A DNA stretch of 64,000 bases from Viola odorata (taxonomy: Eukaryota > Streptophyta > Magnoliopsida > Malpighiales > Violaceae): contig OY829538.1 in assembly GCA_963691705.1 (NCBI GenBank), positions 81,412,781-81,476,780 of the forward strand, in the 5' to 3' direction. The first letter of the stretch is position 1. Every line of letters begins with the position of its first letter. The notes beneath the pieces were generated by a model that was not told where the DNA came from, searched no databases, and saw nothing but the letters and a program-made list of their open reading frames with translations. Both the position numbers and the translations under genes were made by a program. Shown piece by piece: positions 14,901 to 53,694 of the stretch.

Positions 14901-14978
14901 CTTTTGAATTTTAAGTGAGTCACCTTGAAGTTCAAAACTCTTCTTCTTCTACTTTCTTGGGGTTTCATTTCCAGAAAA

Positions 14979-16100
14979 ATGGCATCCAACACGAACTTTC
15001 AATCAAACCAATCCGCTGGTGGTGCTGCTGGTCAGCATGAAACTCCACCAACGCAAGCTTCATCCTCACGTGTGGAATTAAATGCCGCTACTCGTCGGTT
15101 CAGCTTTCCAGAAATTCCAGAAATATCATTTCCGAGCACTCCTCAGCCGGGTCAACCTGCAACAGAAGTTATTGCACCAGCAATCATACTCGAGTTTGCT
15201 GCCCTGCACCGAAGGATGGATGTGATGATGCAGACGTTCATAGGGAGGATTCCTCCACCAGTCAACCAGCCAGCTGTTCCCCAGCAGATCCATGATCGAC
15301 CAGTGGTGACTCCATCTCTATTCCAGCCAGTCAGATCTGTGCACCAGCACACCAGTCGACCATCTCAAGGAAGATCCGGGAGAAGAAGAGGTCGAGAGAG
15401 ATCACCGGATCGATTTCAATCCGAAAGAAATCAAGGGAGAGCTGATTGGAATGCTTCCAGAGGCTCTGTCTCCCGACCAGATCGGGAAGAGCAAGATGAT
15501 GATCCAAAGAATCCGTTGACCTTTCGGATTCGGAGACATCAAGTTAGCAGGCATGTTAAGCTACCATCCGATCACTACCATGGGACAACAGATCCTACGG
15601 TTCATGTGAGTCTGGTAAAGAAACATGTTAAGTTTTTTACTAGAAATGATGATGCTTTATGCCAAATATTTGTGATAACCCTTAAAGGGATAGCCAATGT
15701 TTGGTTTGAGAAGTTACCAGCCGGATCGGTTGACTGTTTTGAGCATCTAGAAAAGGCATTCAGAAGCCGATTCAGCTCATACATTCCGATGGAAAAATCT
15801 TCAGCCGTTCTGTTTGACATGACGCGAAAGTCAGGAGAGTCGCTGGCTGCATATATGGCAAGATTCAACAAGGAATTGGCCGTTCTTCCTGAGGTGGCTC
15901 CTGTCTTGGCGGCCGAAGCTTTAAAAAGAAATTGTAAATATCGGGAGTTGGAAAATGCTCTGATTGCAAACACTCCTAAAACCTTAGATCTTTTGCGGAT
16001 TGAGGTGGGAAAATATTCCAGAATGGAAGAAGCAGACTACCAAAGGAGGAAACGGGAGGAACCCGATCTCCAGAGTGAAGAAAAGAAGCAAACGGCATGA
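14979..16100 (+). CDS. gag: Retroelement Gag protein
   Basis: The ORF has 373 residues from the ATG at 14979 (MASNTNFQSN). An upstream in-frame stretch has only a TTG start. The N-terminal half is Pro/Ser/Arg-rich and low-complexity. The second half carries the retrotransposon gag domain: the Y-H-G-T-T-D-P region, then ALCQIFVITLKGIANVWFEKLP, then the F..RF.S and Y..RFNKEL regions typical of Ty3/gypsy Gag. There is no CCHC zinc knuckle, and the frame ends in KKQTA before any protease. It would form the particle shell and package element RNA. Packaging by a pol-bearing partner is inferred. Confidence 0.85.
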   Translation: MASNTNFQSNQSAGGAAGQHETPPTQASSSRVELNAATRRFSFPEIPEISFPSTPQPGQPATEVIAPAIILEFAALHRRMDVMMQTFIGRIPPPVNQPAVPQQIHDRPVVTPSLFQPVRSVHQHTSRPSQGRSGRRRGRERSPDRFQSERNQGRADWNASRGSVSRPDREEQDDDPKNPLTFRIRRHQVSRHVKLPSDHYHGTTDPTVHVSLVKKHVKFFTRNDDALCQIFVITLKGIANVWFEKLPAGSVDCFEHLEKAFRSRFSSYIPMEKSSAVLFDMTRKSGESLAAYMARFNKELAVLPEVAPVLAAEALKRNCKYRELENALIANTPKTLDLLRIEVGKYSRMEEADYQRRKREEPDLQSEEKKQTA

Positions 16101-16337
16101 AGCCGATGTGCAGATTGGTCGGCCGATTTCCCCTTAAATGCCGTTGTCCAGATCAGAGGAGGAAACGGCAATATTCTCAAAATGACCTAGTGCCGAATGA
16201 CCTCAAACGGTTCAGTCAAAACGGCATCAAGCCGAATCGTCAAAACAGAGATCTTGAGAAAACAAAAATTAAATCAACCGTGGACGTAAGTCATTTTAGA
16301 CCGAACCACGTCACCAAAATCCAAGAATTGACAATAC
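16101..16337 (+). other. Post-gag spacer with dyad motifs
   Basis: The remaining short frames after the gag stop look like decayed or non-coding sequence. They hold repeated AACGGCA...GCCGA motifs near 16088 and 16218, and no zinc knuckle or protease. Confidence 0.6.
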
Positions 16338-16660
16338 ATATATTGCAAACTAATACGTATATTGCAAACTAATACGTATATTGCAAACTAATACATATAT
16401 TGCAAACTAATACATATATTGCAAACGATACATATATTGCAAACGATACATATATCGCCACAAAGGCATATATTGTTATTGAGGCATATATTGCTATTGA
16501 TGCATATATTGCTATTGATGCATATATAGTATTGATGCATATATTGCTATTGATGCATATATAGTATTGATGCATATATCGTTATTGATGCATATATCGT
16601 TATTGATGCATATATCGCTATTGATGCATATATCATTATTGAGGCATCTATTGTCATCAT
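16338..16660. repeat. Compound minisatellite of 18-19 bp units
   Basis: The left part repeats a 19-bp unit (TATTGCAAACTAATACGTA and variants, some shortened). The right part repeats an 18-bp unit (ATTGATGCATATATCGTT and variants) roughly ten times. The 18-bp unit keeps frame, so open frames here are repeats of MHISLL or IYASIA and are not taken as genes. Confidence 0.9.
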
Positions 16661-17081
16661 ATCTTCTTCAGACCATTTTGGTCCTGCCAATCAGACAGAG
16701 TGCTAAGGTCTGTTTCAAACGGCAAATATTTCTTAAAATGGCTCAATGCCGAATCGGCAAAGAGGACATATCAAGAACGGCAAGCAGCCGATTCCCGTTA
16801 CAACAGCCCAAGCCGACTTTGTTCAAAACGGCACACAGCCGATTTGACTCAAAATGGCAAGATTCATGAATTCACAAAATAAAGATAAGTACAATTTGCT
16901 GTTTGTTTTATCTTTGTTTAATTTTTCTGGAGTATGATATATATATAACAGAAATCATTAAACATTAGCAATTACTAAAAATTGCAAAACTATATATATA
17001 TATTCCAAATACTAATTGTTCATTACAAAACATGCCAAAGCGGCAATAATCAAAAAGGCAGAAGGATTAAGCTGCAGGTTT
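16661..17081. other. Internal spacer with AACGGC/GCCGATT dyads
   Basis: No gene is seen. Dyads lie near 16738, 16774 and 16828, followed by AT-rich sequence with TATATA runs up to the stop of the antisense ORF. Confidence 0.6.
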
Positions 17082-19402
17082 CTATGATTCATCTTCTGAA
17101 GAGGACTGATATTCTTTTGCTTCGGCCTCTCTCTCCAAAGAGTTAACATATGTACCGATCTTCGTGGCATTAAAGTTAATCTCCCCATAGAATTCCATGT
17201 AGCTGTCGATCATGATGTCCTTCATTTTCTGCCGCCACCAGCCGATCTTCCATGGGACTTGTGCAAGCTCCGCATCCCTATCGGCAATATCGCTATTGGC
17301 CGTTTTCAACTCTGCCGTTCTGATCTCCAAATCGGCATTGGCCGCGTCTCGCTCTACAATGGTATTGTTCAAATCGTTGACCATCGCGACATTAGTTGCT
17401 TGCACCCGGTTCATGGAATCAAACAAGGCAGAGTTCTCTCTGGACAGCTCCTCGATCCGCACTTGCTCTTCCCTGATCTTCGCAGAAAGGCCGTCCCTTT
17501 CATTCAGACTATCGGCCAGCCTCTTTCGTGTCTCAAGAACGACCTTCTTATCACTTTCTCGGGCGGCCGTTAGCTCTTTTATCTCTTTTCGGAGGGAGGC
17601 TTTCTCGGCTTCAAAGCTTTGCCTAAGATCGGCTAGCTTCTGGTCGGTCGATTCTGCAAGATAGCGAATGTTGCACAAGCTGCGATAGATATTGCATTCG
17701 GCGTTAGAAAACTGCGCACTAAACGGCATCTCTCTGAACCGTTGTCGATCCCCTTCGTTGGCCAGCATTTCGGCAATCAGCTGCCCGGTTCGCCTGTCGG
17801 CACTGCTTGGAACATCTAATCCAAGGGAACGGCAGCCGACGTCCCCAAAGTTCTGCATATTCGCGATATGTGTCGTCTCGCCGTCAGGACCCTGACTCGA
17901 GAGATGGCCTCGAAGATCGGCAGCAGGCGCAAGCGCATAGTCATCCGAGATGAAAGGATCGGGCATTGGCGGACCGGCAACCCAATGAAGAATAACGGGA
18001 GAAGAACCTGAGGAATCGGCAGCAGGAACATCGGATGAGACAGTTGTTTGATTTTCTCTCTGGAGGGGAACCCTTGGAGGAGGAACGGAAGAACTTTCGC
18101 CAATAGCTGGCTCAGGAGCAGGTTCAGCTTGATCGGCATCCTCTATAACGGCATCAGCCTGGCCGATGTCAACTGGCTCAGAAACGGCAGCTTGCCGATC
18201 TTCTTGCTCAGACTCAGGAGGAGCGGTAGCAGAAGGACCGCCATCATCTGGAACGGCCCCTTGCCGATTTGCATTATTTTCGGCCATAGCAACCTCTCTA
18301 GCAGCCCGTCTGACTTCGGCAGCTTTTTCTTTCATTTCGGCAACCCTCTTCCTTTTCTTGAGAACCCGTTGGACCCCTTCAAGAATCTGCAGATCGGGGG
18401 TTCCTAAGGGAAACTGCTCAAAGGTGCCTCGGCTGGTCTTCTTTCGCCTAAAAAGGGATCCTTCGTCAGATGCTGACCGATCCACCACAGGAACGTCCGA
18501 GCAACCTTCACCTTCAGCAGCGGCCTCACCTTCTGCTCCCATGGCACCTTCGCCCTCGGAATCGGTAGAAGACAAACGAATCGGAGTCGATCGTGTTGGT
18601 AAGACCGATCTAATGAGACGCCCCTCTCCTGCACAAAGTGAAATCGGCATCAGAATTTCACAAAGCAAATACATGTTATATTTCACAAGCAAATCGGTAA
18701 CTCACCATCAAGGGCACAGTCCGACAACGGCACACCCAGGGCCATCCTTTGCACATGGAATCTTGTGTCAAAGGCCATTAGAACATCGATCTGAGCCTGC
18801 AGCGGACCAGAAGGATCCTCGGGTTTCACCCACTGCAGCTCGTTCATTGCTGGGTTAAACCCAGATATCCACTGAGGCTTTTCAGCAGAAGAAACCAAGA
18901 AAAAATGATCTTTCCATCCCTTAATGGAAGATTCATATTTGTCAAAATGCCGCAGAAATGGCTGAAGGTCATTGTCCTTGCGGGGACGAATGGTGATCAA
19001 ACTGCTACGAGTACTCAGGTGGAAGAAATATCTAAAAAGCTGAATTGGAGGTTTTTTAATCTTCAAACAGTGGCAGACGTTGATAAAGGCATAAATTGAA
19101 GCCCACGAATTGGGAGTAAGCTGGGCAGGATTCAAAACATGCACCTTCAAAAGGGTCAGCACTAAGGAATGCAGAGGAAGGCGAAAACCATAGGCAAACA
19201 TCTTAGAGTACAAAACTCTATGATTATCGGCAAAAACACTGTTCAACCTAATATCTGGGGAAGCTACAGTGGGAATATATCCTTCGGGCAGCACAATATC
19301 ATACTTTTCTATTTCTAAAGCTAAGTCATCAGCAGACACAAGTTTGGTGGCATTCTGTTCAATCTGCTCATCGGTGGTAATAACTGGACGCCTAGGAGCC
19401 AT
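17082..19402 (-). CDS. Antisense spliced ORF of the Tat element (putative gypsy-type transposon domain)
   Basis: Model: complement(join(17082..18628, 18706..19402)), 747 residues. The 77-bp intron (18629-18705) has a consensus donor G|GTGAGT and acceptor TTTGTGCAG, and joins LSDCALDG to EGRLIRSVL in frame. The N-terminal 230 residues resemble the plant 'putative gypsy type transposon' domain (Pfam Transposase_28): LPEGYIPT, FRLPLHSLVLTLL, LTPNSWASIYAFI, LFRYFFHL and KGWKDHFFLV. A Pro/Glu/Ala-rich disordered region with RKR clusters follows. A long coiled coil (about residues 520-680, with repeated E/K/L heptads and RESDKKVVLETRKRLAD) comes next. Tat-lineage elements are known to carry extra ORFs, some antisense, of unknown function. 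The gene opposes gag and is intact. Its role might be in regulation or mobilisation. Confidence 0.75.
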
Positions 19403-28017: not shown

Positions 28018-31000
28018 TCACAAGTATAGATGGAGTTCCAAACATCCGATGGGAATGCGAGAAATGAATGGCCAATATACCCCTTTCTCCGGTTGACATC
28101 TTTCTGTCAGCAAAGGGCATCCATCTATACGAAGGTAGGAGAGGGAAGTGGGCAGCATCTGGTTCGGATTTGGCTGCAGCGATTGGAGTTTATCGCAGTA
28201 AAAGATCGTCAAGTACTTGAGAGAGGTGAGGGGTTGAAGCCTGTCGTAGTTTAGAAATTTCAGATTCGGAAGGTTTTCGATGGAGAGACCGGTAAGAGTG
28301 GAGGGCAGCAACATCGTCTTCTCAGGGAAGGATTCTTCCACCACATCACAACCACCAATTTCAAGATCTAAGAGGGAAGGAAGCATTTCCAAATCCCACT
28401 CATGCCGTCTTGAGAAAAATTTCTTGCAATCCAATACACGTAGTTCTCGTAATTTGGAGTTGGATCCGCCAAGATACACACCTAGACTCGTAGGGAAAAA
28501 CTCAATTTCCGGACAACTTTCAATCTTCAAGATTTCCAAATTGGAGCAAAGCCGAGACTCAGGCAACACCTTCAAATTTGGGCACCCAAGCAACGAAAGA
28601 GATGCCAAATTGGAGGAGAAATTAGGTGATCGTCCTTTGCAAAAGGATACTAATTTTGGGCATCTCCAGATTTTGAGTTTTTTTAACATGGAGAAGCACT
28701 CTAACGAAAAACACTCAATCTCAAGCTGTTCACATGAATCAATCTTAATTTGAGCTACAGAGGGAAGGTGACTGGGCAAGGCCTTCCTTAGCTTTGGACA
28801 TAACTTTATTTCAACCTCTTGGAGGAGAGGGAAATTAGTCTCATTATCATCACCATCTGAGATCCATTCACACCATTCTTGCATGCTTGTAATACTCAAA
28901 TACCTGAGCTTCTTCATCGAATGTAACTCAGAACCAATGCTTGTAACTCCATCACATGATTCAATGGTAAGTCTCTCCAAAGATGCCAACCGCCAAACAG
29001 GTGGTAACGACAATATTTTACAATTTTTAATTTTTAGAGATACCATGCATGAGAAAGAAGAGTCTCCCACCCAATCTGTAAATCTTTCACCCGCGTAACC
29101 ATAAACGAAGAGACTTTTCAAGTCCGTATGAGGGACTAACTTTTCAAGCATTCGTTGTTGATGCAATGAGCAGTTATCTTCTCCATGACCCCATTTTAGC
29201 TCCAACTCCTCCAGATGTTGCTTACCCCTCAGAATAGCATCTCCAAGATCCATCACATTTTGAAGACCCTCGACACAAAGTCTTCCTCGTAGATTGTGAA
29301 GTTTCTCCAACTCTTTAATATCAGAACTAGACCCCACCTGTTTCTGTTTTCCCACAACAAACTTACTTAACTTTTGAAGTTTTGTCAGTTCACCCATGTG
29401 TGGTGGCATTTCTTGCAAGCTTGTATCCCTAATATCAAGCAAAAATAAGTTGACTAACTTCCTCATATTATTGGGGAGCTTGGTGATCGCTTCGCCTTCT
29501 CTCACGATTAAAATCTGCAAATTATACAATTTGCAAATAGATTCTGGTAGTTGTTGAATATTTCATGGACAACGAAAACTCAAATATCGTAAATGCTTCA
29601 GGGTTCCAATTGAATCTGATAGCCAAACATAATGGGGTAGATGTAGCACCCTTAAGCTTTTAGGGGCCTCCAATAAATCGAAGAACACTCTCCTAAGAAA
29701 AAGGGTTCGCAAAAAGTGTGGCTTGCCAAGAATACATTTCAAATCTTCGATTCCATACTGATCATCTCTTTTAATATATGAAAAATAACGAGTACGTTGA
29801 GTCACCTCAAGGGAATTGGCAGCCTCCTGCCTGGAGCAAAATTCTCTTGATACAAGCGTAGCCATATCATTAAGAAGATCGTGCATGGTGAAAAATGTTT
29901 CGCCATCAGCAGTAATTTGTTGCTGAAGAAAAGACCTGGATACAAGTTCTTCAAAGTATCTCTCACCTGTCATTTCCATATCATCTTCTCTTCGTGATGG
30001 GGCTATAAAACCTTCTACAACCCATAAAAGGACCAATTCCTCCTTTTTAAATTGGTAATTCTTAGGAAACATTGCACAATAGGCAAAACATTGCTTCAGA
30101 GATGATGGGAGATAAAAATAGCTCAATCTAAGAGCCGGAAGAACCTCATCCTCATCGTTGTTGGAAGCCCAGATATTGTTGTTCAATATTTCCTTCCAGT
30201 GCCCAACACGTCTCTCGTTGCGCAAGCTACCTCCTAGTGCTTTTGCAGCTAAAGGTAAGCCATTGCACTTTTTCACCATCTTCCTACCAATCGTTTCTAA
30301 GTCAGGATATTCATGGTAACCTTCGTTACCAAATGCATGTTTTGCAAACAAACGCCAACAATTATGTTTGTTTAGTCCTCCAAAAGGATGACTCTTAACA
30401 GAGGGCATGGTGCGCGCCACTCTTGAATCGCGTGTTGTGACGATGATTTTACTTCCGTGTTTCACAGACATGAACGGTTTCATCAAAGAATCCCATTCTC
30501 TTTGAGTAGCAACCCAAACATCATCTAGAACAAGCAAAACTTTATTCTCACCAAGCTTCCTCTCTAACTTACAATGCATTTGATTCGCAGTCATTTTATC
30601 AATGTCGTACCCCAACTCGAGCTCCTTCATAATATCTCTCGTCACCTGGAAAGCTTTCAACTCTTTCGGAACAGAAACCCATGCTCTAACATCAAAGCAC
30701 TGTTGGACCCTATCGTCCTTGTAGACCAACTGAGCAAGAGTGGTTTTGCCCAACCCATCCATACCAGCTATCAGAACAACTCCAACATTCATACCAATTC
30801 CATCATCAGATCGCAACAGCTCCACTACGCGTTCCTTATCACCATCTCTTCCATAAATAGATGAAGCATCAACCAGAGATGTTGTTGGTGATGAAGCATC
30901 CAATTTTAGTGATCTTTCTTCCCCGGTACTATTTTTCTCCTCCAAACCAAAGGGACACCTCTGCTTCACTAGATGTTCCAGAGTCTCATGGATCTCTTTC

Positions 31001-31955
31001 AACCTAGGTTCCATCTCTCCTACACTCATCTCAGCATCGGCACTGGTCTGGGCACCACCACTTTCGATCTTCAGTTTCAGAACTTCATAATCAATCTCAT
31101 CCAAGAAATCTTCAGCTCTAAAGGCAGCATCTTTCAGATCGTCGAGCCATTCTCGGACATCACGATCAGAAAACTGCTTCTGCTCCGCATCACCAATAAC
31201 CTTGGTAACGGTTCTCAAGGTTACCTTCAACTTCTGCAACTGTCCTTCGTCGCCCACTGGCCTTTTGGTGAGTGATGCAGATTGTATTTTTAGATCTTTA
31301 AGTGCATCATCAATATTTTGCACAATCAACGTTATAAGCTCACACTCAAGTCTATCAAAACGACAATCAAACAACAAAATTAAGTCAATCCAAGCGAATG
31401 ACAGTATTAGCTGGTTTTTAAGTGAAAAAAAGTTAGTTGCTATGAAAGAAAAAGTTACCTGTTTGTGTGAATTCCATCCCACTATATTAGCAGCTTCCTT
31501 CAAGTGAGATCTCACCTCGTTCAGATCCATCTCCCCCTCCCGTAGACGTTCTTTGAGCTTATCAAAAGCGAGTCCAAATTTTCCAGTTTGATTTTTGAGG
31601 TCCGATGGTTCTACTCCGTAGAACACAGGTATAACGATCTGATGGTTAAGCTCTCTGCGCTGGAGGATCTTTGCAAGGTTTTTCAAGCACCATGTAGAAT
31701 CTGCATAGTTCTCGAAAAAATGATGAGAGAAATAGTGGATTTTTCAATGGCAGTGAGAATAGATGGAGAAATGCCGGCTCCTCTGTTCATGTTCTCATCA
31801 TCGAAAGTCAAGATTTGTTTCTTGTCTAAAGCGGCACGGAGGTGACTTATGAAACCCTTGCGAGTGTCCTCTCCCCTAAAACTGAGGAACACATCATAAG
31901 AAGAAGAAGCCAGCCTCACTTCACGGATGGTAGCAGAAGAAGAAGATGAAGCCAT
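28018..31955 (-). pseudogene. NLR copy A: broken TIR-CC-NB-ARC-LRR
   Basis: Domains in order from 31955: TIR (YDVFLSFRGEDTRKG), TNL-like linker, coiled coil of Rx type (VREWLDDLKDAAFRAEDFLDE), NB-ARC with P-loop GMDGLGKTT (second Gly of GMGG changed), VLLVLDDVW, GSKIIVTTR, GLPLAAKALGG, CFAYCAMFPKNY, MHDLLND, then LRRs to 28018. The damage is: (1) a one-base deletion near 31714-31720 that shifts frame inside the TIR; (2) a WCLKNL motif where intact TIRs have WCLxEL, losing the NADase Glu; (3) an in-frame TGA at 29563-29565 in the first LRRs, with the frame open again after it; (4) a changed donor phase at the TIR intron. Its nearest relative is copy C. It is probably non-functional, although the CC-NB-ARC segment is one long open frame from about 31686 to 29563. 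Confidence 0.85.
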
Positions 31956-32130
31956 TCTCGTTGGTTTCCGGTTAACTTCAACTGATCTTGAACATTCGGC
32001 CATTTCTACTTCCCTTCTTTGGACTGCCTCTTTAACATCCTCCGGCACGCTTTCACAAGTCAAATGATGCCGGAATGTTTCGGGTTGAACTTCCCATGGA
32101 AAAGGATGGCTTCAAAATTGACACACCCAG
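31956..32130 (-). pseudogene. Fossil BED zinc finger upstream of copy A TIR
   Basis: On the minus strand this encodes VCQF, then a TGA where copy B has the second finger Cys, then HPFPWEVQPETFRHHLT and CESVPEDVKEAVQRREVE, in frame with the TIR start. It aligns with CEFCGRPFSW...SSHLT...CESVPEDVKE of copy B. The finger is broken by the stop. Confidence 0.7.
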
Positions 32131-33232
32131 CTTATGTCATTATCATTCCGCAGACGGCAGATGTCTCAAAATATTCCTATCATCCATTAGCTATATTTCC
32201 TTTTGCTATATCTACTTTTGAAAAAATCAATTAGAATTTTTTTTTTATACAAATCCAGAAACTTGACTCCATAATTCATGATAAAATGTAAATAAGCTAA
32301 ATATTATAAATAAAAATAAAGCATATATATATATATATGCGCTTATTATCTGTACACTGCTTCTTTTGATCAGATCGTTTCAAGAACATCCATCTTCTAA
32401 CTCTGCGCTCAGCTGCTAATTATATATTTTGTCTATATATATATATATAGATCTTTCCATAATCATCAATTTGTAAAATAGCAGACAAGACACCAAAGTT
32501 CATGTTCCGATCAGAATCAATTACCTGACGAAATATATAATTAGCAGCTGACTACTTGTTGAATTTTATTGACTGGTCAACTCATTAATAACTTGAATTT
32601 TTAATCTCATCCGTCCAATTTTATTGAACGGTTCAGATTCTTCTAATATGACTAGTCATATTCAAAGAAAAATTAGAGGAGCCGGATATATTAAATAAAT
32701 ATTTATTGTAAATTTAAAGTTCTTAAAACGTTAAAGTTAAATTAACTTTCCGTTAAAATATTATTATAGTGAGTAACTTTTTGAATGTTTAAATTTAAAA
32801 ATTAAAATTAAATGACTTAGGTTCAAATTGCACGTTCATATATAAAAAAAAACACAACTCGATATGCATGAATTATATATTAAAAAAAAGAATTATTAAT
32901 ACGTAATTACTAATTTATAAATTATAACTATACCTAAAATTATTAAATAAATATTTATCATAAACTTAAAGTACTTAAAACCTTAAAGTTAAATTAATTT
33001 TTCAATAATATATTACCCAAATTGAGTAGTTTATTAATTTTTTATATTTAAAAATTAATAACTAATAGATAAAAATAAATTTATATAACCTAATAAATTG
33101 TTATAAAATGACATAGAAGATATACTTAATAGATGAAAGTGAGCCCTTAAAAAAAAATAGATGAAAGTGAGCTACCACGCGCAATTTCTTTAGACTTTTC
33201 AGCGTTAATGAAAGTGAGCTAAGTGTGAAAAT
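32131..33232. other. 5' flank of NLR copy A
   Basis: AT-rich, with no gene. It matches the 5' flank of copy C (51960-52975), so the A/C duplication extends to about 33220. A half MITE lies inside (32553-32690). Confidence 0.6.
32553..32690. mobile_element. Half of the Mutator-like foldback MITE
   Basis: It matches the right half of the element at 25600-25850 (GACTGGTCAACTCATTAAT ... AAAATTAGAGGAGCCGGAT), with no left half nearby. Confidence 0.65.
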
Positions 33233-35967: not shown

Positions 35968-38900
35968 CTAGCGAATCCAGGTACGATCAAGCCATATCCT
36001 GGGGATGTGAGAAATGAATGGCCAATCCACCCCTTTCTCCGGTTGACATCTTTCTGTCAGCAAAGGGCAATCACTTATATTAAGGAAGGAGAGGGAAGTG
36101 GGCAGCTTCTGGTTCTGATTTGGCTGCAGGGATTGGAGTTTATGGCAGTTCCAGATATGCAACGACCTGAGAGATGTGAGGGGTTGAAGCCCGTCGTAGT
36201 TTAGAGATTTCAGATTCGGAAACTCTAAAATGATAAGACAGGTAAGAGTGGAGGGCAGCAGCATCGTCTTCTCAGGGAAGGATTCTTCCACCTCATCACA
36301 ACCACCAATAGCAAGACTTAAGAGGGAAGGAAGCATTTCCAAACCCCACTCATGCCGTCTTGAGAAAAGTTTCTTGCAATCCCTTACATTTAGTTCTCGT
36401 AATTTGGAGTTGGAGCCGCCAAGATATGCACCCAGACTCGTAGGGAAAATCTCAATTTCCGAACAACTTGAAATCCTTAAGATTTCCAAATTGGAGCAGA
36501 GACGAAACTCAGGCAACACCTTCAAATTTGGGCAATTAAACAACGAAAGAGTTGCTAAATTGGAGGAGAAATTAGGTGATCGTCCTTTGCAAAAGGATAC
36601 TAATTTTGGGCAACTCCAGATTGTGAGTTCTTTTAACATGGGGAAGCACTCTAACAAAAAACAATCAATCTCAAGTTGTTCACATGAATCAATCTTAATT
36701 TTAGCTACAGAGGGAAGGTGACTGGGCAGGGCCTTCCTTAGCTTTGGACATGACTCTATTTCAAGCTCTTGGAGGAGAGGGAAATTAGTCTTACTATCAT
36801 CACCATCTGAGATCCATTCACACCATTCTTGCGTTGTAATACTCAAATACGTGAGCTTCTTCATCGAATGTAACTCAGAACCAATGCTTGTGACTCCATC
36901 ACATGATTGAATGGTAAGTCTCTCCAAAGATGCCAACCGACAAACAGGTGGTAACGACAATATTTTACAACTTTCAATTTTCAGGGATACCATGCATGAG
37001 AAAGAAGAGTCTCCCACCCAATCTGCAAATCTTTCACCCCCGTAACCATAAACGAAGAGACTTTTCAAGTCCGTATGAGGGACTAACTTTTCAAGCACTC
37101 GTTGTTGATGCAATGAGCAGTTACTGTTATCTTCTCCATGACCCCATTTCAGCTCCAAATCCTCCAAATATTGCTTACCCCTCAGAATAGCATCTCCAAG
37201 ATCTATCACATTTTGAAGACCCTCAACACAAAGTCTTCCTCGTAGATTGTGAAGTTTCTCCAACTCTTTAATATCGGAACTAGACCCCGCTTGTGTCTGT
37301 TTTCCCACAACAAAATTGCTTAACTTTCGAAGTTTTGTCAGTTCACCCATGTGTGGTGGCATTTCTTGCAATCCTGAATCTGTAATATCAAGCAAAAATA
37401 AGTTGACTAACTTCCTCATGTTATTAGGGAGCTTGGTGAGCGCTTTGCAATCCCTCACAATTAAAATCTGCAAATTATACAATTTGCAGATAAATTCTGG
37501 TAGTTGTTGAATATCTGATGGACCAAACCTCAAATATCGTAAATGCTTCAGGATTCCAATTGAATCTGATAGCTCATACCCTCCAACATAACGGGATAGA
37601 TGTAGCACCCTTAAGCTCTTAAGGGCCTCCGATAAATTGAACAACATTCCCATATTGATATTGTGCATTAAAAAAAGGGTTCGCAAACCGTGTGGCTTGC
37701 CAAGAATACATTTCAAACCTTGATCATCTCCTCTAATATATGACAAATAACGAGTACGTTGAGTCACCACCTCAAGGGAATTGACAGCCTCTAGCTTGAA
37801 GCAAAATTCTCTTGATACAAGCTTAGCCATATCATTAAGAAGATCGTGCATAGTGAAAACTGTTTTGGCATAAGCAGAACTTTGTTGCTGAAGAAAAGAC
37901 CTGGATACAAGATCTTCAAAGTATCTCTCACCTGTCATTTCCATATCTTCTCCTCTTCGTGATGGGGCTATAAAACCTTCTGCAACCCATAAAAGGACCA
38001 ATTCCTCCTTTACAAATCGGTAATTCTTAGGAAACATTGCACAATAAGCAAAACATTGCTTCAGAGATGATGGGAGATAAAAATAGCTCAATCTAAGAGC
38101 CGGAAGAACCTCATCCTCACCCTCATCGTTGGTGGAAGCCCAGATATTGTTGTTAAGTATTTCCTTCCAGCGCCCAACACGTCTCTCGTAGCGCAAGATA
38201 CCTCCTAGTGCTTTTGCAGCTAAAGGTAAGCCATTGCACTTTTTCACCATCTCCCTACCAATCTTTTCCAAGGCAGGATATTCACGGTAACCTTTGTTAC
38301 CAAATGCATGTTTTACAAACAAACGCCAACAATTATCTTCTTTTAGTTCTGCCAAACGATGAATCTTAACAGAGGGCATGGTGCGCGCCACACTTGAATT
38401 GCGTGTTGTGACGATGATTTTACTTCCCTGTTTCACAGACTTGAACGGTTTCATCAAAGAATCCCATTCTCCTTGAGTAGCAACCCAAACATCATCTAGA
38501 ACAAGCAAAACTTTATTCCCACTAAGCTTCCACTCTAACTCACAATGCATTTGATTCGCAGTCATTTTATCTATGTCCTTCCCCAACCCAACCTCCTTCA
38601 TAATATCTCTCGTCACCTGGAAAGCTTCCAACTCTTTCGGAACATAAACCCATACTCTAACATCAAAGCACTGCTGGACCCTGTCGTCCTTGTAGACCAA
38701 CTGAGCAAGAGTGGTTTTGCCCAACCCACCCATACCAACTATCAGAACAACTCCAACATTCATACCAATTCCATCATCAGATCGCAACAGCTCCACTATG
38801 CGTTCCTTATCACCATCTCTTCCATAAACATATGAAGCATCAACCAGAGATGATGTTGGTGATGAAGCATCAAATTTTAGTGTACTATTTTTCTCCTTCA

Positions 38901-39801
38901 AACCAAGGGGACCCATCTGCTTCATTAGATGTTCCAGAGTCTCATGGATCTCTTTCAACCTAGGATCCATCTCTCCTACACTCATCTCAGCATCGGCACT
39001 GGTCTGGGCACCACCACTTTCGATCTTCAATTTCAGAACTTCATAAGCAACCTCATCCAAGAAATCTTCAGCTCTAAAGGCAGCATCTTTCAGATCGTCG
39101 AGCCATTCTCGGACATCACGATTAGTAAACTGCTTCTGCTCCGCATCACCAACAACCTTGGTAACGGTTCTCAAGGTTACCTTCAACTTCTTCAACTGTG
39201 TTGGCATCGTATATTGAAGCACCCCTCCTTGATTGCCGAAGTGACCCACATCCACCATTGGAACTTCAACTTCAGCTACAATTGGTAATTCATCTGGCAT
39301 GGTTCTCTGTCGTTTGTTTCTCTGTACAGTGCTATCTCTTTGATCCATTAGCTCTCCAACTACTGGAGAACCTCCCCTTTTCTCCAAAGTCCTTTGAACG
39401 CTTGAAACTTCTGCTTCTACTTCTTTTCCTGTTTGACATTCAAAGTTGCTGTTGTTATCTTCACATGGATCCAGAATTCGCGTTGGTTCCCAATTATCTT
39501 CAACTCTTGAACATTCTGCATCTACTTCTCTTCTTTGGACTGCCACTTCATTGGTTGAAACTGCTCCTCTGGATCTTCTGGGTCTTGTTTGTTCAACTAG
39601 AACCGCGGCAGCTACCTCTTTAACATCCTCCGGTACGCTTTCGCAGATTTTAATGCTAGAGGTAGACCCCTGAACTCCTGTCAAATGACTGCTGAAGGTT
39701 TTGGTTGTAACACTCCATGAGAAAGGACGGCCGCAAAACTCGCACTCCCATCCTCCGTTATCAAGCCTTGTCTTCAGATGTTTCCTAACACCCTTATCCA
39801 T
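35968..39801 (-). CDS. NLR copy B: BED zinc-finger CC-NB-ARC-LRR resistance protein
   Basis: A single 1,277-residue exon from the ATG at 39801. Residues 18-53 form a BED-type finger: Cys20, Cys23, His39 with HLTG, and Cys53, then VPEDVKE as in plant BED and hAT-like fingers. A charged linker (60-205) follows, then an Rx-type coiled coil (about 205-290) with WLDDLKDAAFRAEDFLDE. NB-ARC has the P-loop GMGGLGKTT at about 356, kinase-2 VLLVLDDVW, GSKIIVTTR, GLPLAAKALGG, CFAYCAMFPKNY and MHD at about 651. About 20 imperfect LRRs run from 700 to the C-terminus. BED-NLRs act as intracellular immune receptors, with the BED finger an integrated domain. All key nucleotide-binding motifs are intact, so a functional protein is likely. 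The pathogen recognised is unknown. Confidence 0.92.
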   Translation of the reverse strand: MDKGVRKHLKTRLDNGGWECEFCGRPFSWSVTTKTFSSHLTGVQGSTSSIKICESVPEDVKEVAAAVLVEQTRPRRSRGAVSTNEVAVQRREVDAECSRVEDNWEPTRILDPCEDNNSNFECQTGKEVEAEVSSVQRTLEKRGGSPVVGELMDQRDSTVQRNKRQRTMPDELPIVAEVEVPMVDVGHFGNQGGVLQYTMPTQLKKLKVTLRTVTKVVGDAEQKQFTNRDVREWLDDLKDAAFRAEDFLDEVAYEVLKLKIESGGAQTSADAEMSVGEMDPRLKEIHETLEHLMKQMGPLGLKEKNSTLKFDASSPTSSLVDASYVYGRDGDKERIVELLRSDDGIGMNVGVVLIVGMGGLGKTTLAQLVYKDDRVQQCFDVRVWVYVPKELEAFQVTRDIMKEVGLGKDIDKMTANQMHCELEWKLSGNKVLLVLDDVWVATQGEWDSLMKPFKSVKQGSKIIVTTRNSSVARTMPSVKIHRLAELKEDNCWRLFVKHAFGNKGYREYPALEKIGREMVKKCNGLPLAAKALGGILRYERRVGRWKEILNNNIWASTNDEGEDEVLPALRLSYFYLPSSLKQCFAYCAMFPKNYRFVKEELVLLWVAEGFIAPSRRGEDMEMTGERYFEDLVSRSFLQQQSSAYAKTVFTMHDLLNDMAKLVSREFCFKLEAVNSLEVVTQRTRYLSYIRGDDQGLKCILGKPHGLRTLFLMHNINMGMLFNLSEALKSLRVLHLSRYVGGYELSDSIGILKHLRYLRFGPSDIQQLPEFICKLYNLQILIVRDCKALTKLPNNMRKLVNLFLLDITDSGLQEMPPHMGELTKLRKLSNFVVGKQTQAGSSSDIKELEKLHNLRGRLCVEGLQNVIDLGDAILRGKQYLEDLELKWGHGEDNSNCSLHQQRVLEKLVPHTDLKSLFVYGYGGERFADWVGDSSFSCMVSLKIESCKILSLPPVCRLASLERLTIQSCDGVTSIGSELHSMKKLTYLSITTQEWCEWISDGDDSKTNFPLLQELEIESCPKLRKALPSHLPSVAKIKIDSCEQLEIDCFLLECFPMLKELTIWSCPKLVSFCKGRSPNFSSNLATLSLFNCPNLKVLPEFRLCSNLEILRISSCSEIEIFPTSLGAYLGGSNSKLRELNVRDCKKLFSRRHEWGLEMLPSLLSLAIGGCDEVEESFPEKTMLLPSTLTCLIILEFPNLKSLNYDGLQPLTSLRSLHIWNCHKLQSLQPNQNQKLPTSLSFLNISDCPLLTERCQPEKGVDWPFISHIPRIWLDRTWIR

Positions 39802-42989: not shown

Positions 42990-44400
42990 ACATTTTTTTA
43001 AAGCAGAATACGTAAATCCAGCAAGGGATTGGAGATAAATTTTGTCGTTGGCGCTGCCCCACTGGACTGATTCCCACCATTCCTTTGGATAAACTTTGAT
43101 TCTCCGAAGGGAAGGTTGTGAAAGAGGGAAAGTTATCCTCTATAGCTTCGGGCAATTAACCAATTGGATTTCATGTAGTGAATGACAAGTGATCGCGCCA
43201 TTGTATATGCTTCTCAGTTCTGGTAAACCCCGCAATTCCAATTTGATTAGCTGTGGAAGATTGAGTCCTACTTGCTCACCTTCTTGGTCTATTCCAAATA
43301 TTTCTTCCATGCCACTGCAACACCATACCTTAATCATTCGTAGGTTAGGCAGCAAACCGGCAGGGAACAAGTTCTTCAATTGGTGACACGTCTTTATTTT
43401 AATTGATTTAAGGTTTGACAGGAATGGTGTTGTAGCAATAGTAGAAGTTTCTACTCCGAAGATGCCACACAGGTTGTCCCACGGTGCGTACACCAAACTC
43501 TCTATTCCATCACATCTTTCCAGTCGAAGAAAGTGGAGCTGAGTTGTATGTTTTAGTGCTAAAACACTGTCCCATAAAGAGCCATTGAGATCATTCTTGA
43601 TAATCAATACTTGAATGCCAGTGGTCAGTGGCAATGCCACATAATCATTCCTGCTACTCTCGAGATTTCATGTACTTCCTCCACTCTTTGGTGTCATCAA
43701 AACTGCAATGCAGGCGTTCCAACTTCTCCAACCTCCCCACTTCCTTTCCTTTAACTGAGACTCTTGTTTTCCATAGATTAAGGACTTGCAACCGAGAAAG
43801 CTTAGGTATTATCTCACTCCCTATCCTTTCTATTCCACTGAAGGAGAGATCTAGATGCTTGAGGTTGTTGATAAGAAATTCCAAGCCTTCAGGCATCCTT
43901 TCAAGCATTCCACAACTGGAAAGATCTAACTTCTTTAATCTCTTTAGCTTTGATAACGATGGCACATGACTTAGCTTCCGACATCCACGGAGTAATAAAG
44001 CAGTAAGATTCACCAAATCACTAACGTATACGGTCAATTCCTGCATTTGATGGCACCCAGAAACATCAAGAACCTTGAGCTTATGAAATTGCTTTAAAAA
44101 TGAACCAGCTATCTTTCTCAATCCACAATTTTGACGTAACAATAGTGTTGAAAGATTGGGACACCTTGGAGTGTGGCCGGAAGGAATCACCTTAATGTCA
44201 TTATACATCAACGACACACACACCAAATTCTCTGTCCACTCCTCCACGTCTGGTAATTCTTTTAATTATACCCCTTCTTCCACGAGCGTATTGGACCTCT
44301 CTCTCAATTCATAGATCGCCATGTCCCTAATTAGGTCATGCATCCACACATCTGTAGTATCACCTTCCAATAAGCAGGCATTCACAAGTGTCCTGGTTAT
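42990..44400 (-). pseudogene. Decayed NLR fragment of a second clade (RPS2/At4g27190-like)
   Basis: On the minus strand from 44400: LVNACLLEGD, WMHDLIRDMAIYELRERSNTLVEEGV, a stop at 44266-44268, then LKELPDVEEWTENLVCVSLMYNDIKVIP and leucine-rich repeats. A frameshift sits just before 43654 (after KYMKSRE). LRRs then continue to NCPKL, a stop follows near 43140, and the usual family ending (RRIKVYPKEWWESVQWG) closes near 43000. Everything before the end of the NB-ARC domain is missing. It belongs to a different CC-NLR group from copies A-C. The cut 5' side is next to a retroelement fragment. Confidence 0.85.
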
Positions 44401-47838: not shown

Positions 47839-50800
47839 CTAGCGAATCCAGATACGATTAATATCCATGCTGGGGATGTGAGAAATGAATGGCCAATCCA
47901 CCCCTTTCTCCGGTTGACATCTTTCTGTCAGCAAAGGGCATCCACTTATATAAAGGGAGGAGAGGGAAGTGGGCAGCTTCTGGTTCTGATTTGGCTGCAG
48001 GGATTGGAGTTTATCGCAGTGGTAGATCCACAACGACATGAGAGAGGTGAGGAGTTGAAGCCCGTCATAGTTTAGAGATTTCAGATTCGGAAACTCTACT
48101 ATCCTCAGACTGGTAAGAGTGGAGGGCAGCAGCATCGTCTTCTCAGGAAAGGATTCTTCCACCTCATCACAACCACCAATTAGAAGAGTTAAGAGGGAAG
48201 GAAGCATTTCCAAACCCCACTCATGCCGTCTTGAGAAAAGTTTCTTGCAATCCCGTACGTCTAGTTCTCGTAATTTGGAGTTGGAGCCGCCAAGATGCTC
48301 ACCCAGATTCGTAGTGAAAAACTCAATTTCCGGACACCTATCAATCCTTAAGATTTCCAAATTGGAGCAGAGACGAGACTCAGGCAACACCTTCAAATTT
48401 GGGCAATCAACCAAGTCAAGAGATGCCAAATTGGAGGAGAAATTAGGTGATCCTCCTTTGCAAAAGGATATTAATTTTGGGCATTCCCAGATTTTGAGTT
48501 CTATTAACATGGGGAAGCACTCTAACGAAAAACACTCAATCTCAAGCTGTTCACATGATTCAATCCTAATTTGAGCTACAGAGGGAAGGTGACTGGGCAA
48601 GGCCTTCCTTAGCTTTGGACATGACTCTATTTCAAGCTCTTGGAGAAGAGGGAAATTAGTCTCACTATCACCATCTGAGATCCATTCACACCATTCTTGC
48701 ATGCTTGTAATACTTAAATACCTGAGCTTCTTCATCGAATGTAACTCAGAACCAATGCTTGTGACTCCATCACATGATTCAATGGTAAGTCTCTCCAAAG
48801 ATGCCAACCGACAAACAGGTGGTAACGACAATATTTTACAATTTTCAATTTTCAGGCATACCATGCATGAGAAAGAAAAGTCTCCCACCCAATCTGCAAA
48901 TCTTTCACCCCCGTAACCATAAACGAAGAGAATTTTCAAGTCCGTATGAGGGACTAACTTTTCAAGCACTCGTTGTTGATGCAATGAGCAGTTACTGTTA
49001 TCTTCTCCATGATCCCATTTCAGCTCCAACTCCTCCAGATGTTGCTTACCCGTCAGAATTCCATCCATAGCATCTTCAAGATCCATCACATTTTGAAGAC
49101 CCTCAACAGAAAGACTTCCTCGTAGATTTTGAAGTTTCGCCAACTCTTTAATATCAGAACTAGACCCCGCCTGTTTCTGTTTTCCCACAACAAAATTGCT
49201 TAACTTTCGAAGTTTTGTCAGTTCACCCATGTGTGGTGGCATTTCTTGCAATCTTGTATTCGTAATATCAAGCAAAAATAAGTTGACTAACTTCCTCATG
49301 TTATTGGGGAGCTTGGTGAGCGTTCTGCATCCCCTCACGATTAAAATCTGCAAATTATAAAATTCACAAATAAATTCTGGTAGTTGTTGAATATCTGATA
49401 GACCAAACCTCAAATATCGTAAATGCTTCAGGATTCCAATTGAATCTGGTAGCTCGTACCCCCGAACATAAAGAGGTAGACGTAGCACCCTTAAGCTTTT
49501 AAGGGCCTCCAATGAATTGAACAACACTCCCATAATGTCTTCGGGTATTGAAAAAAGGGTTCGCAAAAAGTGTGGCTTGCCAAGAATACATTTCAAATCT
49601 TCGATTCCATACTGATCATCTCCTCTTTTAATATATGACAAATAACGAGTACGTTGAGTCACCAGCTTAAGGGAATTGACAGCCTCCAGCCTGGAGCAAA
49701 ATTCTCTTGATACAAGCGTAGCCATATCATTAAGAAGATCGTGCATAGTGAAAAATGTTTTAACAGAATCAGTACTTTGTTGCTGAAGAAAAGACCTGGA
49801 TACCAGATCTTCAAAGTATCTCTCACCTGTCATTTCCATATCATCTTCTCTTCGTGATGGGGCTATAAAACCTTCTGCAACCCATAAAAGGACCAATTCC
49901 TCCTTTTCAAATCGGTAATTCTTAGGAAACATTGCACAATAAGCAAAACATTGCTTCAGAGATGATGGGAGATAAAAATAGCTCAATTTAAGAGCCGGAA
50001 GAACCTCATCGTTGGTGGAAGCCCAGATATTGTTGTTAAGTATTTCCTTCCAGCGCCCAACACGTCTCTCGTAGCACAAGATACCTCCTAGTGCTTTTGC
50101 AGCTAAAGGTAAGCCATTGCACTTTTTCACCATCTCCCTACCAATCTTTTCCAAGGCAGGATATTCACGGTAACCTTTGTTACCAAATGCATGTTTTACA
50201 AACAAACGCCAACAATTATCTTCGTCTAGTCCTTTCAAATCGTGAATCTTAATAGAGGGCATGGTGCACGCCACAGTTGAATGGCGTGTTGTGACGATGA
50301 TTTTACTTCCCTGTCTTACAGACATGAACGGTTCCATCAAAGAATCCCATTCTTCTTGAGTAGCAACCCAAACATCATCTAGAACAAGCAAAACTTTATT
50401 CCCACTAAGCTTCCTCTCTAACTCACAATGCATTTGATTCGTAGTCATTTTATCAATGTCCTTCCCCAACTCGAGCTCCTTCAAAATCTCTCTCGTCACC
50501 TGGAAAGCTTCCAACACTTTCGGAACATAAACCCATATGGGTTTAAGATCAAAGCACTGCTGGACCCTGTCGTCCTTGCAGACCAACTTAGCAAGAGTGG
50601 TTTTACCCATCCCACCCATACCAACTATCAGAACAACTCCAACATTCATACCAATTCCATCATCAGATCGCAACAGCTCCACTACGCCTTCCTTATCACC
50701 ATCTCTTCCATAAACATATGAAGCATCAACCAGAGATGTTGTTGGTGATGAAGCATCCAATTTTAGGGATCTTTCTTCCCCGGTACTATTTTTCTCCTTC

Positions 50801-51780
50801 AAACCAAGGGGACCCATCTGCTTCATTAGATGTTCTAGGGTCTCATGGATCTCTTTCAACCTAGGATTCATCTCTCCTACACTCATCTCAGCATCGGCAC
50901 TGGTCTGGGCACCACCACTTTCGATCTTCAATTTCAGAACTTCATAAGCAACCTCATCCAAGAAATCTTCAGCTCTAAAGGCAGCATCTTTCAGATCGTC
51001 GAGCCATTCTAGGACATCACGATCAGAAAACTGCTTCTGCTCCGCATCACCAATAACCTTGGTAACGGTTCTCAAGGTTACCTTCAACTTCTGCAACTGT
51101 CCCTCGTCGCCCACTGGCCTTTTGGTGAGTGATGCAGATTGTCTTTTTAGAACTTTAAGTTCAGCATCAATATTTTGCACAATCAACGTTATAAGCTCAT
51201 ACTCAAGTCTATCAAAACGACAATCAAACAACAAAATTAAAATTAAGTCAATCCAAGCGAATGACAGTATTAGCTGGTTTTTAAGTGAAAAAAAGTTAGT
51301 TGCTATGAAAGAAAAAAGTTACCTGATGATTTGTGAATTCCATCCCGCTATATTAGCTGCTTGCTCCAAGTGAGAGCTCACCTCGTTCAGATCCATCTCC
51401 CCCTTCCGTAGACGTTCTTTGAGCTTATCAAAAGCAAGTCCAAATTTTCCAGTTTGCTTTTTGATGTCCGATGGATCTACTCCGTAGAACACAGGTATAA
51501 CGATCTGACCGTTAAGCTCTTTGCACTGGAGGATCTTTGCAAGTTCTTTCAAGCACCATTTAGAATCTGCATAGTTCTCGGAAAAAATGACGAGAGAAAT
51601 AGTGGATTTTTCAATGGCAGTGAGAATAGATGGAGAAATGCCGGCTCCTCTGTTCATGTTCTCATCATCGAAAGTCAAGATTTGTTTCTTGTCTAAAGCG
51701 GCACGGAGGTGGCTTATGAAACCCTTGCGAGTGTCCTCTCCCCTAAAACTGAGGAACACATCATAAGAAGAAGAAGCCAT
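47839..51780 (-). CDS. NLR copy C: TIR-CC-NB-ARC-LRR fusion resistance protein
   Basis: Model: complement(join(47839..51208, 51323..51780)), 1,275 residues from MASSSYDVFLSFRG. Exon 1 encodes a complete TIR domain (1-150) with the putative NADase Glu79 in SKWCLKEL. The 114-bp intron (CATCAG|GTAACT ... TTTTGATAG) falls where TNL genes have theirs and joins SQII-R-LEYELITLIVQNI in frame. Exon 2 carries a TNL-like linker, then an Rx-type coiled coil (about 185-270, WLDDLKDAAFRAEDFLDE) and NB-ARC with GMGGMGKTT at about 349, VLLVLDDVW, GSKIIVTTR, CFAYCAMFPKNY and MHD at about 641. LRRs run to the end. The NB-ARC is of CC-NLR type (LDDVW, MHDLLND), not TNL type. A frameshifted BED finger lies upstream. 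No disabling change is seen. The protein would be an intracellular immune receptor with two N-terminal signalling domains. Confidence 0.85.
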
Positions 51781-51960
51781 TCTCGTTGGTTCCCTGTTAA
51801 CTTCAACTGATCTTGAACATTCGGCCGTTTCTACTTCCCTTCTTTGGACTGCCTCTTTAACATCCTCCAGCACGCTTTCACAGATCCTAGTCAAATGATG
51901 CCGGAATGTTTCGGGGTTGAACTTCCCATGGAAAAGGATGGCCACAAAATTGACATACCC
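51781..51960 (-). pseudogene. Fossil BED zinc finger upstream of copy C TIR
   Basis: One minus-strand frame reads VCQFCGHPFPWEVQP, aligning with CEFCGRPFSW of copy B. One extra C in a C run near 51917-51923 then moves the continuation ETFRHHLTRICESVLEDVKE into the TIR frame. The TIR frame itself has no ATG before 51780, so this is now 5' leader sequence. Confidence 0.75.
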
Positions 51961-53694
51961 AGCTTATTTCATTATCATTCCGCTGATGTTCATAACATTC
52001 CCATCATCCATAGCTATATTTCCTTTTGCTATATCTACTTTTGAAAAAATCAATTAGAAAAAAAAGATTTATACAAATCCAGACACTTAGACTCCATAAA
52101 TCGAAAGAGAAGAAGAAAAAGTAGCAATTACCTGATTGATTAGAATTATAGGGAAGATGGAAGAGAAGTATAAGAAAACACAGACAGAGAATGAAGGATA
52201 TCTCTTGAACAAAAGTCTGAATAATGCATTACTACTTGTCTACTTCCATTGCCAAAACCAAGACTTTGTGGAAAATCAATCAAATGTGGGGCCGTGGTTT
52301 GCTTATCTTCGATGCCCAATTTCATTACTTTTACTACTTTTACTACAGTGACTCTCCTTGAAGAGGGATATAAAAGTTTTCTTTAATGGAGTAAAAGTTT
52401 ATACCTAAGTTTCAAATGTAAAAAAAATGATAAGGTAAAAGTTATAATTGTATATAAAATATATAAAATAAATATTTATTATAAATTTAAAATTCTTAAA
52501 ATGCTAAAATTAAATTAATTTTGCGTTAGAATATTATTATAATGAGTAATTTTTTGAATGTTTAAATTTAAAAATTAAAATTAAATCATTTATGTTCAAA
52601 TCGCACCTTCATATATAAAAAAAAGTACAATTCAATATATATGAGTCATATATAAAAAAAAAACAATAAAATAAATAAACTAATACGTAATTACTAATTT
52701 ATAAGTTATAATTATACCTAAAATTATTAAATATATATTTATCATAAACTTAAAGTCCTTAAAATCTTAAAGTTAAATTAGTTTTTCAGTAATGTATTAC
52801 CCAAATTGACTAGTTTATTAAATTTTTATATTTAAAATTTAATAATTAATGAATAAAAATAAATTTTTGTAATTTAAAAAGGACATAGAAGATCTACTTA
52901 ATAGATTCTTAATAGATGAAAATGAGCTACCACGCGCAATTTCTTTAGATTTTTGAGCGTTAATGAAAGTGAGTTCGCGGGACAGGACAATGGTAAGGGG
53001 CCGTCGGCATAGTTGTCGTTTCTTGTTTACCCTTTTTTTTTAAGAGAGAAAACAATAAACGCTTTCGGCTGCCGGCCATATACTGTTGCTGCAATCATGC
53101 ATTATTGTAGGTCATTATGATGTCATTTCCTTTTACTCTATAAATCAAAGAATAAATTGGCACAAATCCTTTATAATATATATATATGTTGTTGTATCTA
53201 GACAAATATTTGATACACCTTTAAAAAAATTGACAAATTATTGATATATGTTGTTTAAACCTTTTTTATTGGATTTGTGCATTCTTTGATTTAGAAATAA
53301 CCAAAACTAAACAAGAAACAAACATAGAGCAGTAGAAGTGCTAGCTCCTAGTCCGAGCCCATTACTAAAGTCATCTTTATGGGCCATGTTCGCATGCACA
53401 AGCCAACAGACGATTCCCACTCAACCATCAAATGTTCATCAAATAATAAAAAGATACTCACCAACTAGTTAGAGACTACTACTACTACATTAATCATTGT
53501 TAAGAGTCTTAAGACAATAAAATATAAAGGATCCAGCTGACTCCTTGTACCTGTGGCAAAAAGCCATTATAAGAGCCTTCACATCATCATAGTTTACATC
53601 GAGAGTCCAACAACAAACCAAATACATCTTGCACATAACCTCTACAAAAAGAGTGTAAATCTCGCACGCGCAAGGTGGACGGAGACTCCGCCCA
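51961..53694. other. 5' flank of copy C and intergenic region
   Basis: About 51960-52975 matches the 5' flank of copy A. A probable leader exon of copy C ends near 52133 (minus strand, CAG|GTAA). From about 52980 to 53694 the sequence is unique, and the part next to 53694 is the probable 3' UTR of BUD31. No other gene. Confidence 0.55.

Follow-up and report, generated by a model that had tools for sequence, protein, structure and literature searches.

The 64,000-nucleotide stretch of Viola odorata DNA analyzed here (the window; contig OY829538.1, chromosome C2) carries on its minus strand, between positions 51780 and 47839, a gene that we call copy C. Plant nucleotide-binding leucine-rich-repeat receptors (NLRs) that begin with a TIR domain (TNLs) and those that begin with a coiled coil (CC; CNLs) are regarded as distinct classes, each with its own output. 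Our analysis confirms that in the DNA of copy C a TIR module of one receptor class is joined to a CC-type gene of the other. The gene is laid out as follows (window coordinates).

51780-51323, minus strand: exon 1 of copy C, an open frame for the TIR domain (residues 1-152 plus two bases)
51544-51546, minus strand: codon of the catalytic Glu79 (WCLKEL), aligned with the Glu of RUN1 WCLDEL
51322-51209, minus strand: intron of 114 bp, GT-AG, phase 2 (CATCAG/GTAACT ... TTTTGATAG/ACTTGAG)
51208-47839, minus strand: exon 2, an open frame with Pfam matches, encoding linker, truncated CC, NB-ARC, winged helix, and LRR
51110-51208, minus strand: TNL-type linker in place of CC helix 1 (15.6 bits with a hidden Markov model of the TNL linker; a model of the CNL N-terminus matches only from position 37 of 63)
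50920-51123, minus strand: remaining Rx-type coiled coil, helices 2-4 (Pfam Rx_N profile positions 18-84 of 93)
49978-50691, minus strand: NB-ARC of CNL type (Pfam residues 326-563, E 1.1e-50; best PDB match ZAR1)
47938-49563, minus strand: LRR region of R13L1 type (Pfam PF25019, PF23598, PF23247; LRRs to about residue 1243)

Joined across the intron, the two exons form one frame of 1,275 residues with a single stop at its end. An earlier note on this DNA, made from its letters, had claimed a full TIR domain with the WCLKEL glutamate and its fusion to a CC-type NB-ARC-LRR, and both claims hold on the joined frame, where every domain call lies above the Pfam cut-off: TIR at residues 6-175 (E 2.8e-48), Rx_N at 182-249 (E 4.6e-16), NB-ARC, WH_DRP at 579-649, and LRR. 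The closest PDB matches to the TIR are RPV1 and RUN1, and in entry 7s2z, titled as an E100A mutant, the residue aligned with Glu79 is Ala. The catalytic Glu is present in 33 of 33 TIR-CNL proteins (a set defined below), as well as in all 28 related loci examined in this genome, one of which (L047) has a stop within its TIR. At 3 of the 39 columns conserved among 125 TNL TIRs, the copy C domain deviates. Decay signaled by a missing Trp (W134V) was considered and ruled out, as a true TNL of this genome (L029) has Met at this position and three TIR-bearing loci of the RPS2/G10 family of NLRs (hereafter G10; L030-L032) have Val. As to the body, kinase-2 reads LDDVW rather than the TNL-type LDDVD, and the NB-ARC scores 181 bits against ZAR1 versus 66 bits against the G10 body 9h2l, so that it is of neither TNL nor G10 type and the CNL assignment made earlier stands. 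The predicted protein of copy C thus has, on its joined exons, the domain order known as TCNL (TIR, CC, NB-ARC, and LRR in one frame), with an incomplete CC.

The in-frame 114-bp intron was also correctly placed at the TNL position: L033, L034, L036, and L045, which are true TNLs of this genome, share its donor sequence, phase, and place, and in both copy C and these TNLs reading restarts after the intron at PE-[SNC]-ELIKSIV. The TIR-Rx fusion occurs at four loci, all on C2, which we call copies A, C, D, and E. Copies D and E, at 81.20 and 81.58 Mb of the chromosome that carries copy C (81.46 Mb), are open, and because there are these two further open copies on the same chromosome, the fusion in copy C is not a matter of chance. 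Copy D encodes 1,487 residues counted from the Met of a BED-like zinc finger, which with a long linker lies in frame ahead of the TIR; copy E encodes 1,296 residues from the TIR Met. Their NB-ARCs score 557 and 512 bits with an Rx query and 82 and 92 bits with a G10 query. A false join of two adjacent genes could be ruled out: the joint recurs in D and E, and annotated proteins of Populus and Rosaceae span it. Between 51100 and 51400, a scan with bacterial consensus sequences, which carries little weight, found no simple promoter- or terminator-like site. If the intron is retained, the frames of C, D, and E meet a TAA directly past the codon that spans the donor, as expected if intron retention in C yielded a TIR-only protein beside the full receptor. 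The retained intron of copy A, however, reads open (the TIR of A is broken further upstream), and we give such a pair of products only a slight chance.

The coiled coil is the part of the earlier description that stood only in part: an Rx-type CC is indeed present, but it is incomplete. Alignment of copy C with ZAR1 begins at ZAR1 residue 22, and the residues up to about 21 are what we take to be helix 1. This is the channel-forming helix in ZAR1-type receptors. Copy C has no CC helix 1 at a free N-terminus and hence no complete CNL coiled coil, while helices 2-4 and an EDVID-like stretch are kept.

In place of helix 1 we find sequence of another origin. For comparison we assembled 33 TIR-CNL proteins, namely copy C and 32 database proteins (12 from Populus and 20 from Rosaceae) that were picked from 333 listed proteins for having a TIR and an NB-ARC above 150 bits against copy C, the list holding the best 120 per search out of thousands of matches. 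Every one of the 33 matches the TNL-linker model after its TIR (15.6-40.2 bits), and none is matched by the CNL N-terminus model before position 21 of 63. In several of the Populus and Rosaceae proteins, Pfam Rx_N begins as early as position 4-5, since the profile is aligned at that point with the helix of the TNL linker; by the linker model, the helix in those proteins originates from the TNL linker. An AlphaFold model of the piece 51207-49708 places helices at residues 35-58, 63-97, and 105-129, and in 12 of 15 structural alignments of this piece to CNL chains that reach the CC, the match starts past the linker helix (residue 28-34). The TIR-less paralogues of copy C open differently: the 10 that we fetched (L011-L020, of which L013 and L017 have an internal stop) begin with MAEVALAILSPVISALIEKMVSADVLDFF or a near form, a full MA(E/D)...DFF helix 1.

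This bears on the suggestion, also made earlier, that one receptor may combine both outputs, a TIR enzyme and a CC channel. Helices 2-4 and the EDVID-like stretch are still there to be counted in its favor. Since helix 1 is missing or replaced by the TNL linker in copy C and the 32 database proteins, and the TIR covers the N-terminus, we regard dual output in a single receptor as very improbable.

The origin of the front end goes beyond the earlier note and involves further features of the window.

51105-51109, minus strand: recombination breakpoint (homology to locus L028 stops at 51105; homology to L011, L013, and L015 begins at 51109)
51781-51857, minus strand: in-frame leader before the TIR Met, common to G10-family loci (51844-51765 is 97.5% identical to L028 and 96% to L027)
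52095-52372, minus strand: upstream stretch common to G10-family loci (88.5% to L028; 52368-52095 is 88.4% to L027)
51870-51975, minus strand: broken BED-like finger remnant of copy C, with a frame break relative to copies B and D
35968-39801, minus strand: copy B, the same CNL body preceded by a BED-like finger and a linker, with neither TIR nor CC helix 1
28018-32277, minus strand: copy A, the same fusion as copy C in broken form (1-base TIR deletion, Glu to Asn, body split into two open reading frames)

From 51785 to 51105, copy C is 90% identical to L028 (C2:79.87 Mb), and past 51109 its identity is 91-96% to L011, L013, and L015, ordinary CNLs of the same cluster; the site of the change is identical in C, D, and E. 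Neither L027 nor L028 is a TNL, as the same TIR exon, intron, and linker are followed in them by an RPS2-like NB-ARC and LRR (both assigned by NB-ARC type). L028 has a Pfam LRR_RPS2 match, its nearest solved body is the wheat G10 resistosome 9h2l, and its TIR and NB-ARC lie too close together for a coiled coil to fit between them. Judged by these similarities, copy C is a recombinant with a G10-family front end on a CNL body. The whole front end, from upstream stretch and leader through TIR exon and intron to the linker, was donated by this second TIR-bearing family, or by a close relative. It was joined onto the body of an ordinary Rx-type CNL from the C2 cluster, the junction falling where CC helix 2 begins. 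For the upstream stretch 52095-52372, we infer a promoter role. The leader region is shared more widely, 51857-51779 of copy C being 82% identical to copy B.

In this genome, G10-type NLR bodies carry a TNL-type cassette of exon 1, intron 1, and linker. Among 26 TIR loci fetched, a G10-type body follows in 17 and a true TNL body in 7, and 2 have no body in reach; the 17 lie on C2 at 78-80 Mb and on C10 at 52-54 Mb (L027, L028, L030-L032, L035, L038, L040, L041, L044, and L046-L052). In a genome-wide count over 67 G10-type search matches (at least 65% identity to a G10-type query) and 57 TIR matches, with seven partial G10 matches, seven partial TIR matches, and two pieces of copy A excluded, a TIR exon lies 150-362 bp upstream on the same strand in at least 30, a lower bound since only the best candidates were scored, and there is none in 37. 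A tree of 35 TIR exons groups C, A, D, and E with the G10 loci L027 and L028 (100/100). A single clade of G10-type and C-type TIRs is rejected in the approximately unbiased (AU) test (p 4e-6), whereas a single TNL clade is not (p 0.28); hence, the exon changed between TNL and G10 bodies on more than one occasion, or returned. On general grounds, rather than by this tree, the TNLs are regarded as the older home of the TIR.

Copy B resembles the fusions in its body and in the extent of its Rx_N match (19-84 of 93). Its linker (39317-39249) is 97% identical to the G10-family locus L031, and on this evidence copy B is itself a recombinant, carrying a BED-like finger and a G10-family linker on a CNL body. 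The zf-BED is open in B (18.2 bits) and D (12.8 bits), both below the Pfam cut-off of 20.6 bits, and is broken in A and C, so that copy C is not a BED-NLR. In copy D, a 33-bp direct repeat with one mismatch has one unit before and one after the TIR cassette, both units corresponding to the stretch that precedes the NB-ARC in G10-family genes (LTKRPVGD), which we read as the site of the crossovers. In trees of exon 2, a single clade of the four TIR copies is rejected for the LRR (AU p 0.0235) but not for CC-NB-ARC (p 0.19), which makes a reshuffling of fronts and bodies among the cluster's genes probable. Between copies B and C (43140-44247, minus strand), two open reading frames of 166 and 197 residues resemble, by eye, a G10-type LRR (compare L028); they are likely what is left of a donor-family member next to the recombinant.

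The search for the same architecture in other species, as the earlier note had proposed, found this domain order in Populus and Rosaceae proteins. Populus proteins P0002-P0011 have TIR, CC, NB-ARC, and LRR by their listed Pfam domains, and three of them were scanned here. One clade of the Rosaceae fusions with those of the window and Populus is rejected (NB-ARC p 3.6e-6, TIR p 0.00086), and by these trees the Rosaceae fusions are of separate origin. One clade of window and Populus sequences, copy B included, is not rejected (NB-ARC p 0.061, TIR p 0.506); with copy B left out it is rejected at p 1e-36, a near-trivial result since B lies among the window copies. The nearest named entries to the window NB-ARCs in the tree are from Malpighiales. 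Copy C differs from its unswapped paralogues, L011 and L012, at a dS of 0.03-0.10, and the TIRs of copy C and L027/L028 differ at a dS of 0.07-0.09. The low values against the unswapped paralogues favor a young event, separate from that in Populus, although gene conversion could yield the same dS. Two Rosa proteins depart from the simple order: P0144 has three TIR stretches with one NB-ARC and LRR_RPS2, and P0239 has four TIR stretches with one NB-ARC.

We favor, with a probability of roughly 0.6, the reading that copy C encodes a CNL sensor whose output has been swapped to a TIR/NADase one. TIR signaling needs induced proximity. The LRR would detect an effector and the CNL-type NB-ARC would assemble into a wheel, which would draw the TIRs together so that they cleave NAD+ and feed the EDS1 pathway. 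The leftover coiled coil would act as a spacer; with no helix 1 and no free N-terminus, it could not form a channel of the ZAR1 type. The same argument, that no channel is expected for sensors with N-terminal extensions, appears in PMC6944444, and the absence of helix 1 where the CC no longer executes the response fits the "use-it-or-lose-it" model of that paper. A plant TIR placed on the animal NLR NLRC4 triggers plant defense on wheel formation, with NADase activity needed, according to the portion consulted of PMC7414095; this chimera likewise puts a plant TIR on a foreign oligomerizing NLR, but it is man-made and has an animal body.

Several observations weigh against a swapped output. The evidence for the fusion comes from DNA. 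The linker of copy C gives the lowest of the 33 TNL-linker matches (15.6 bits), its helix is modeled by AlphaFold at low confidence (pLDDT about 42-53), and 3 of the 15 structural alignments (8xuq, 6j5u, and 9fyc) include that helix; on these three alignments, the linker helix may occupy the place of helix 1 in the resting receptor. For helix 1 of the TIR-less paralogues, a MADA-type function is putative. Copy C also lacks the BED-like finger that D has in frame, so that it may have decayed from a larger protein. Finally, the TIR is constrained, yet less than in TNLs: dN/dS has a median and a ratio of sums of 0.30 among seven TNL loci (21 pairs), against a median of 0.62 and a ratio of 0.60 among 17 G10 loci (133/136 pairs). 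For copies C, D, and E the median is 0.68 and the ratio 0.69 against L027/L028 (6 pairs), and both are 0.83 against all 17 G10 loci (51 pairs). In the bodies, dN/dS is about 1 or above in most comparisons among cluster copies (small numbers). The remaining TIR comparisons give a median of 0.44 and a ratio of 0.42 for TNL versus G10 loci (119 pairs), 0.57 and 0.56 for C, D, and E against TNLs (21 pairs), and, again in small numbers, 0.54 to 0.87 among C, D, and E and 1.0 to 1.8 with the broken copy A. An A-C value of 1.9 in the TIR was set aside as a sign of selection, since copy A is broken.

These ratios raise the question of whether the chimera is recombination debris under little selection, with C-type copies often arising in the cluster and then decaying like A. 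The body values near or above 1, the TIR value of 0.83, the broken copy A, the BED-like finger broken in both C and A, and the scatter of the TIR-copy bodies in the LRR tree would all suit this explanation. It sits poorly with frames that are open over 1,275-1,487 codons in C, D, and E, with TIR dN/dS below 1 against other loci, with at least 30 TIR-G10 fusions, and with the same domain order in Populus and Rosaceae; debris is in our view quite improbable.

The main rival is that the TIR, or in B and D the BED-like finger, is an integrated decoy that baits effectors attacking TIR or BED proteins, with a helper NLR executing the response. We treat it as such because the TIR is less constrained, at no less than twice the TNL dN/dS, and because BED-like fingers hold the front place in B and D; it was on account of the weaker constraint that the earlier note's alternative of an integrated TIR was kept in play. 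The TIR-less copy B also lacks helix 1, as expected for helper-dependent sensors (PMC6944444, in the part consulted). Against it, the catalytic Glu is found in all 33 TIR-CNL proteins and all 28 related loci, though not in the broken copy A, and the linker that couples TIR to NB-ARC is retained, of which bait would have no need. We consider the decoy unlikely, if the strongest of the alternatives, and keep a swap of output as the preferred reading.

The swap in copy C may belong to a broader pattern. TNL exon 1, its phase-2 intron, and the linker of about 25 residues could together form a portable output cassette, moved by recombination from TNLs to G10-type NLRs (at least 30 loci) and on to Rx-type CNLs (4 loci), replacing the part of the CC that executes cell death and rewiring sensors to TIR/EDS1, with the same swap at the same joint made separately in Rosaceae; to this proposal we give even odds.

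Among known systems, copy C has its TIR domain in common with the TNL receptors RPV1, RUN1, RPP1, and ROQ1, and its exon 1-intron 1 layout and linker with TNLs of its own genome; its NB-ARC, winged helix, and LRR are of CNL type instead. These, with the R13L1-type LRR and CC helices 2-4, are common to ZAR1/Rx-type CNLs, from which copy C differs in lacking helix 1 and having a TIR in front. G10/RPS2-type NLRs are the donor family of its front end, while its body is Rx-type. The TIR-CNL proteins of Rosaceae (Rosa, Rubus, Fragaria, and Argentina; many named RPP13-like protein 1) have the same order and a TNL linker for helix 1.

The domain order itself is already known. The excerpt of PMC3782705 lists "TCNL" genes for poplar and grape with functions "yet unidentified" (citing Yang 2008 and Tuskan 2006), in the same order as copy C, and states that CNL-TNL chimeras appear rare and that 37 Populus NLRs have a BED finger; that excerpt contains no mechanism, helix-1 loss, linker replacement, or donor. 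In apple, 35 TCNL genes are counted with NB motifs of TNL type (PMC4169499, in excerpt), so that one label covers unlike things, and the class is merely named in the part seen of PMC3914791. With a narrow choice of terms, a search of the open-licence literature found no description of the joint, the helix-1 replacement, the donor, or the TIR-G10 fusions; the joint, helix-1 loss, donor, and larger TIR-G10 set thus appear to be undescribed in the literature searched.

The swap, the joint, the donor family, and the unswapped paralogues are all found in one genome, mostly on one chromosome, which makes it a testable question whether a CNL NB-ARC is indifferent to the output domain it carries, and whether helix 1 is lost once a TIR takes over. 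Natural swaps that evolution has kept would also serve as models for engineering receptors toward a particular output. The public name "RPP13-like protein 1" often hides the TIR of such proteins.

Elsewhere in the window, for which an Rfam scan of the full length returned no match, open reading frames at 14925-19402 resemble, by eye, retrotransposon gag and related proteins, and one at 3938-5998 (minus strand) resembles, also by eye, a trehalose-phosphate synthase.

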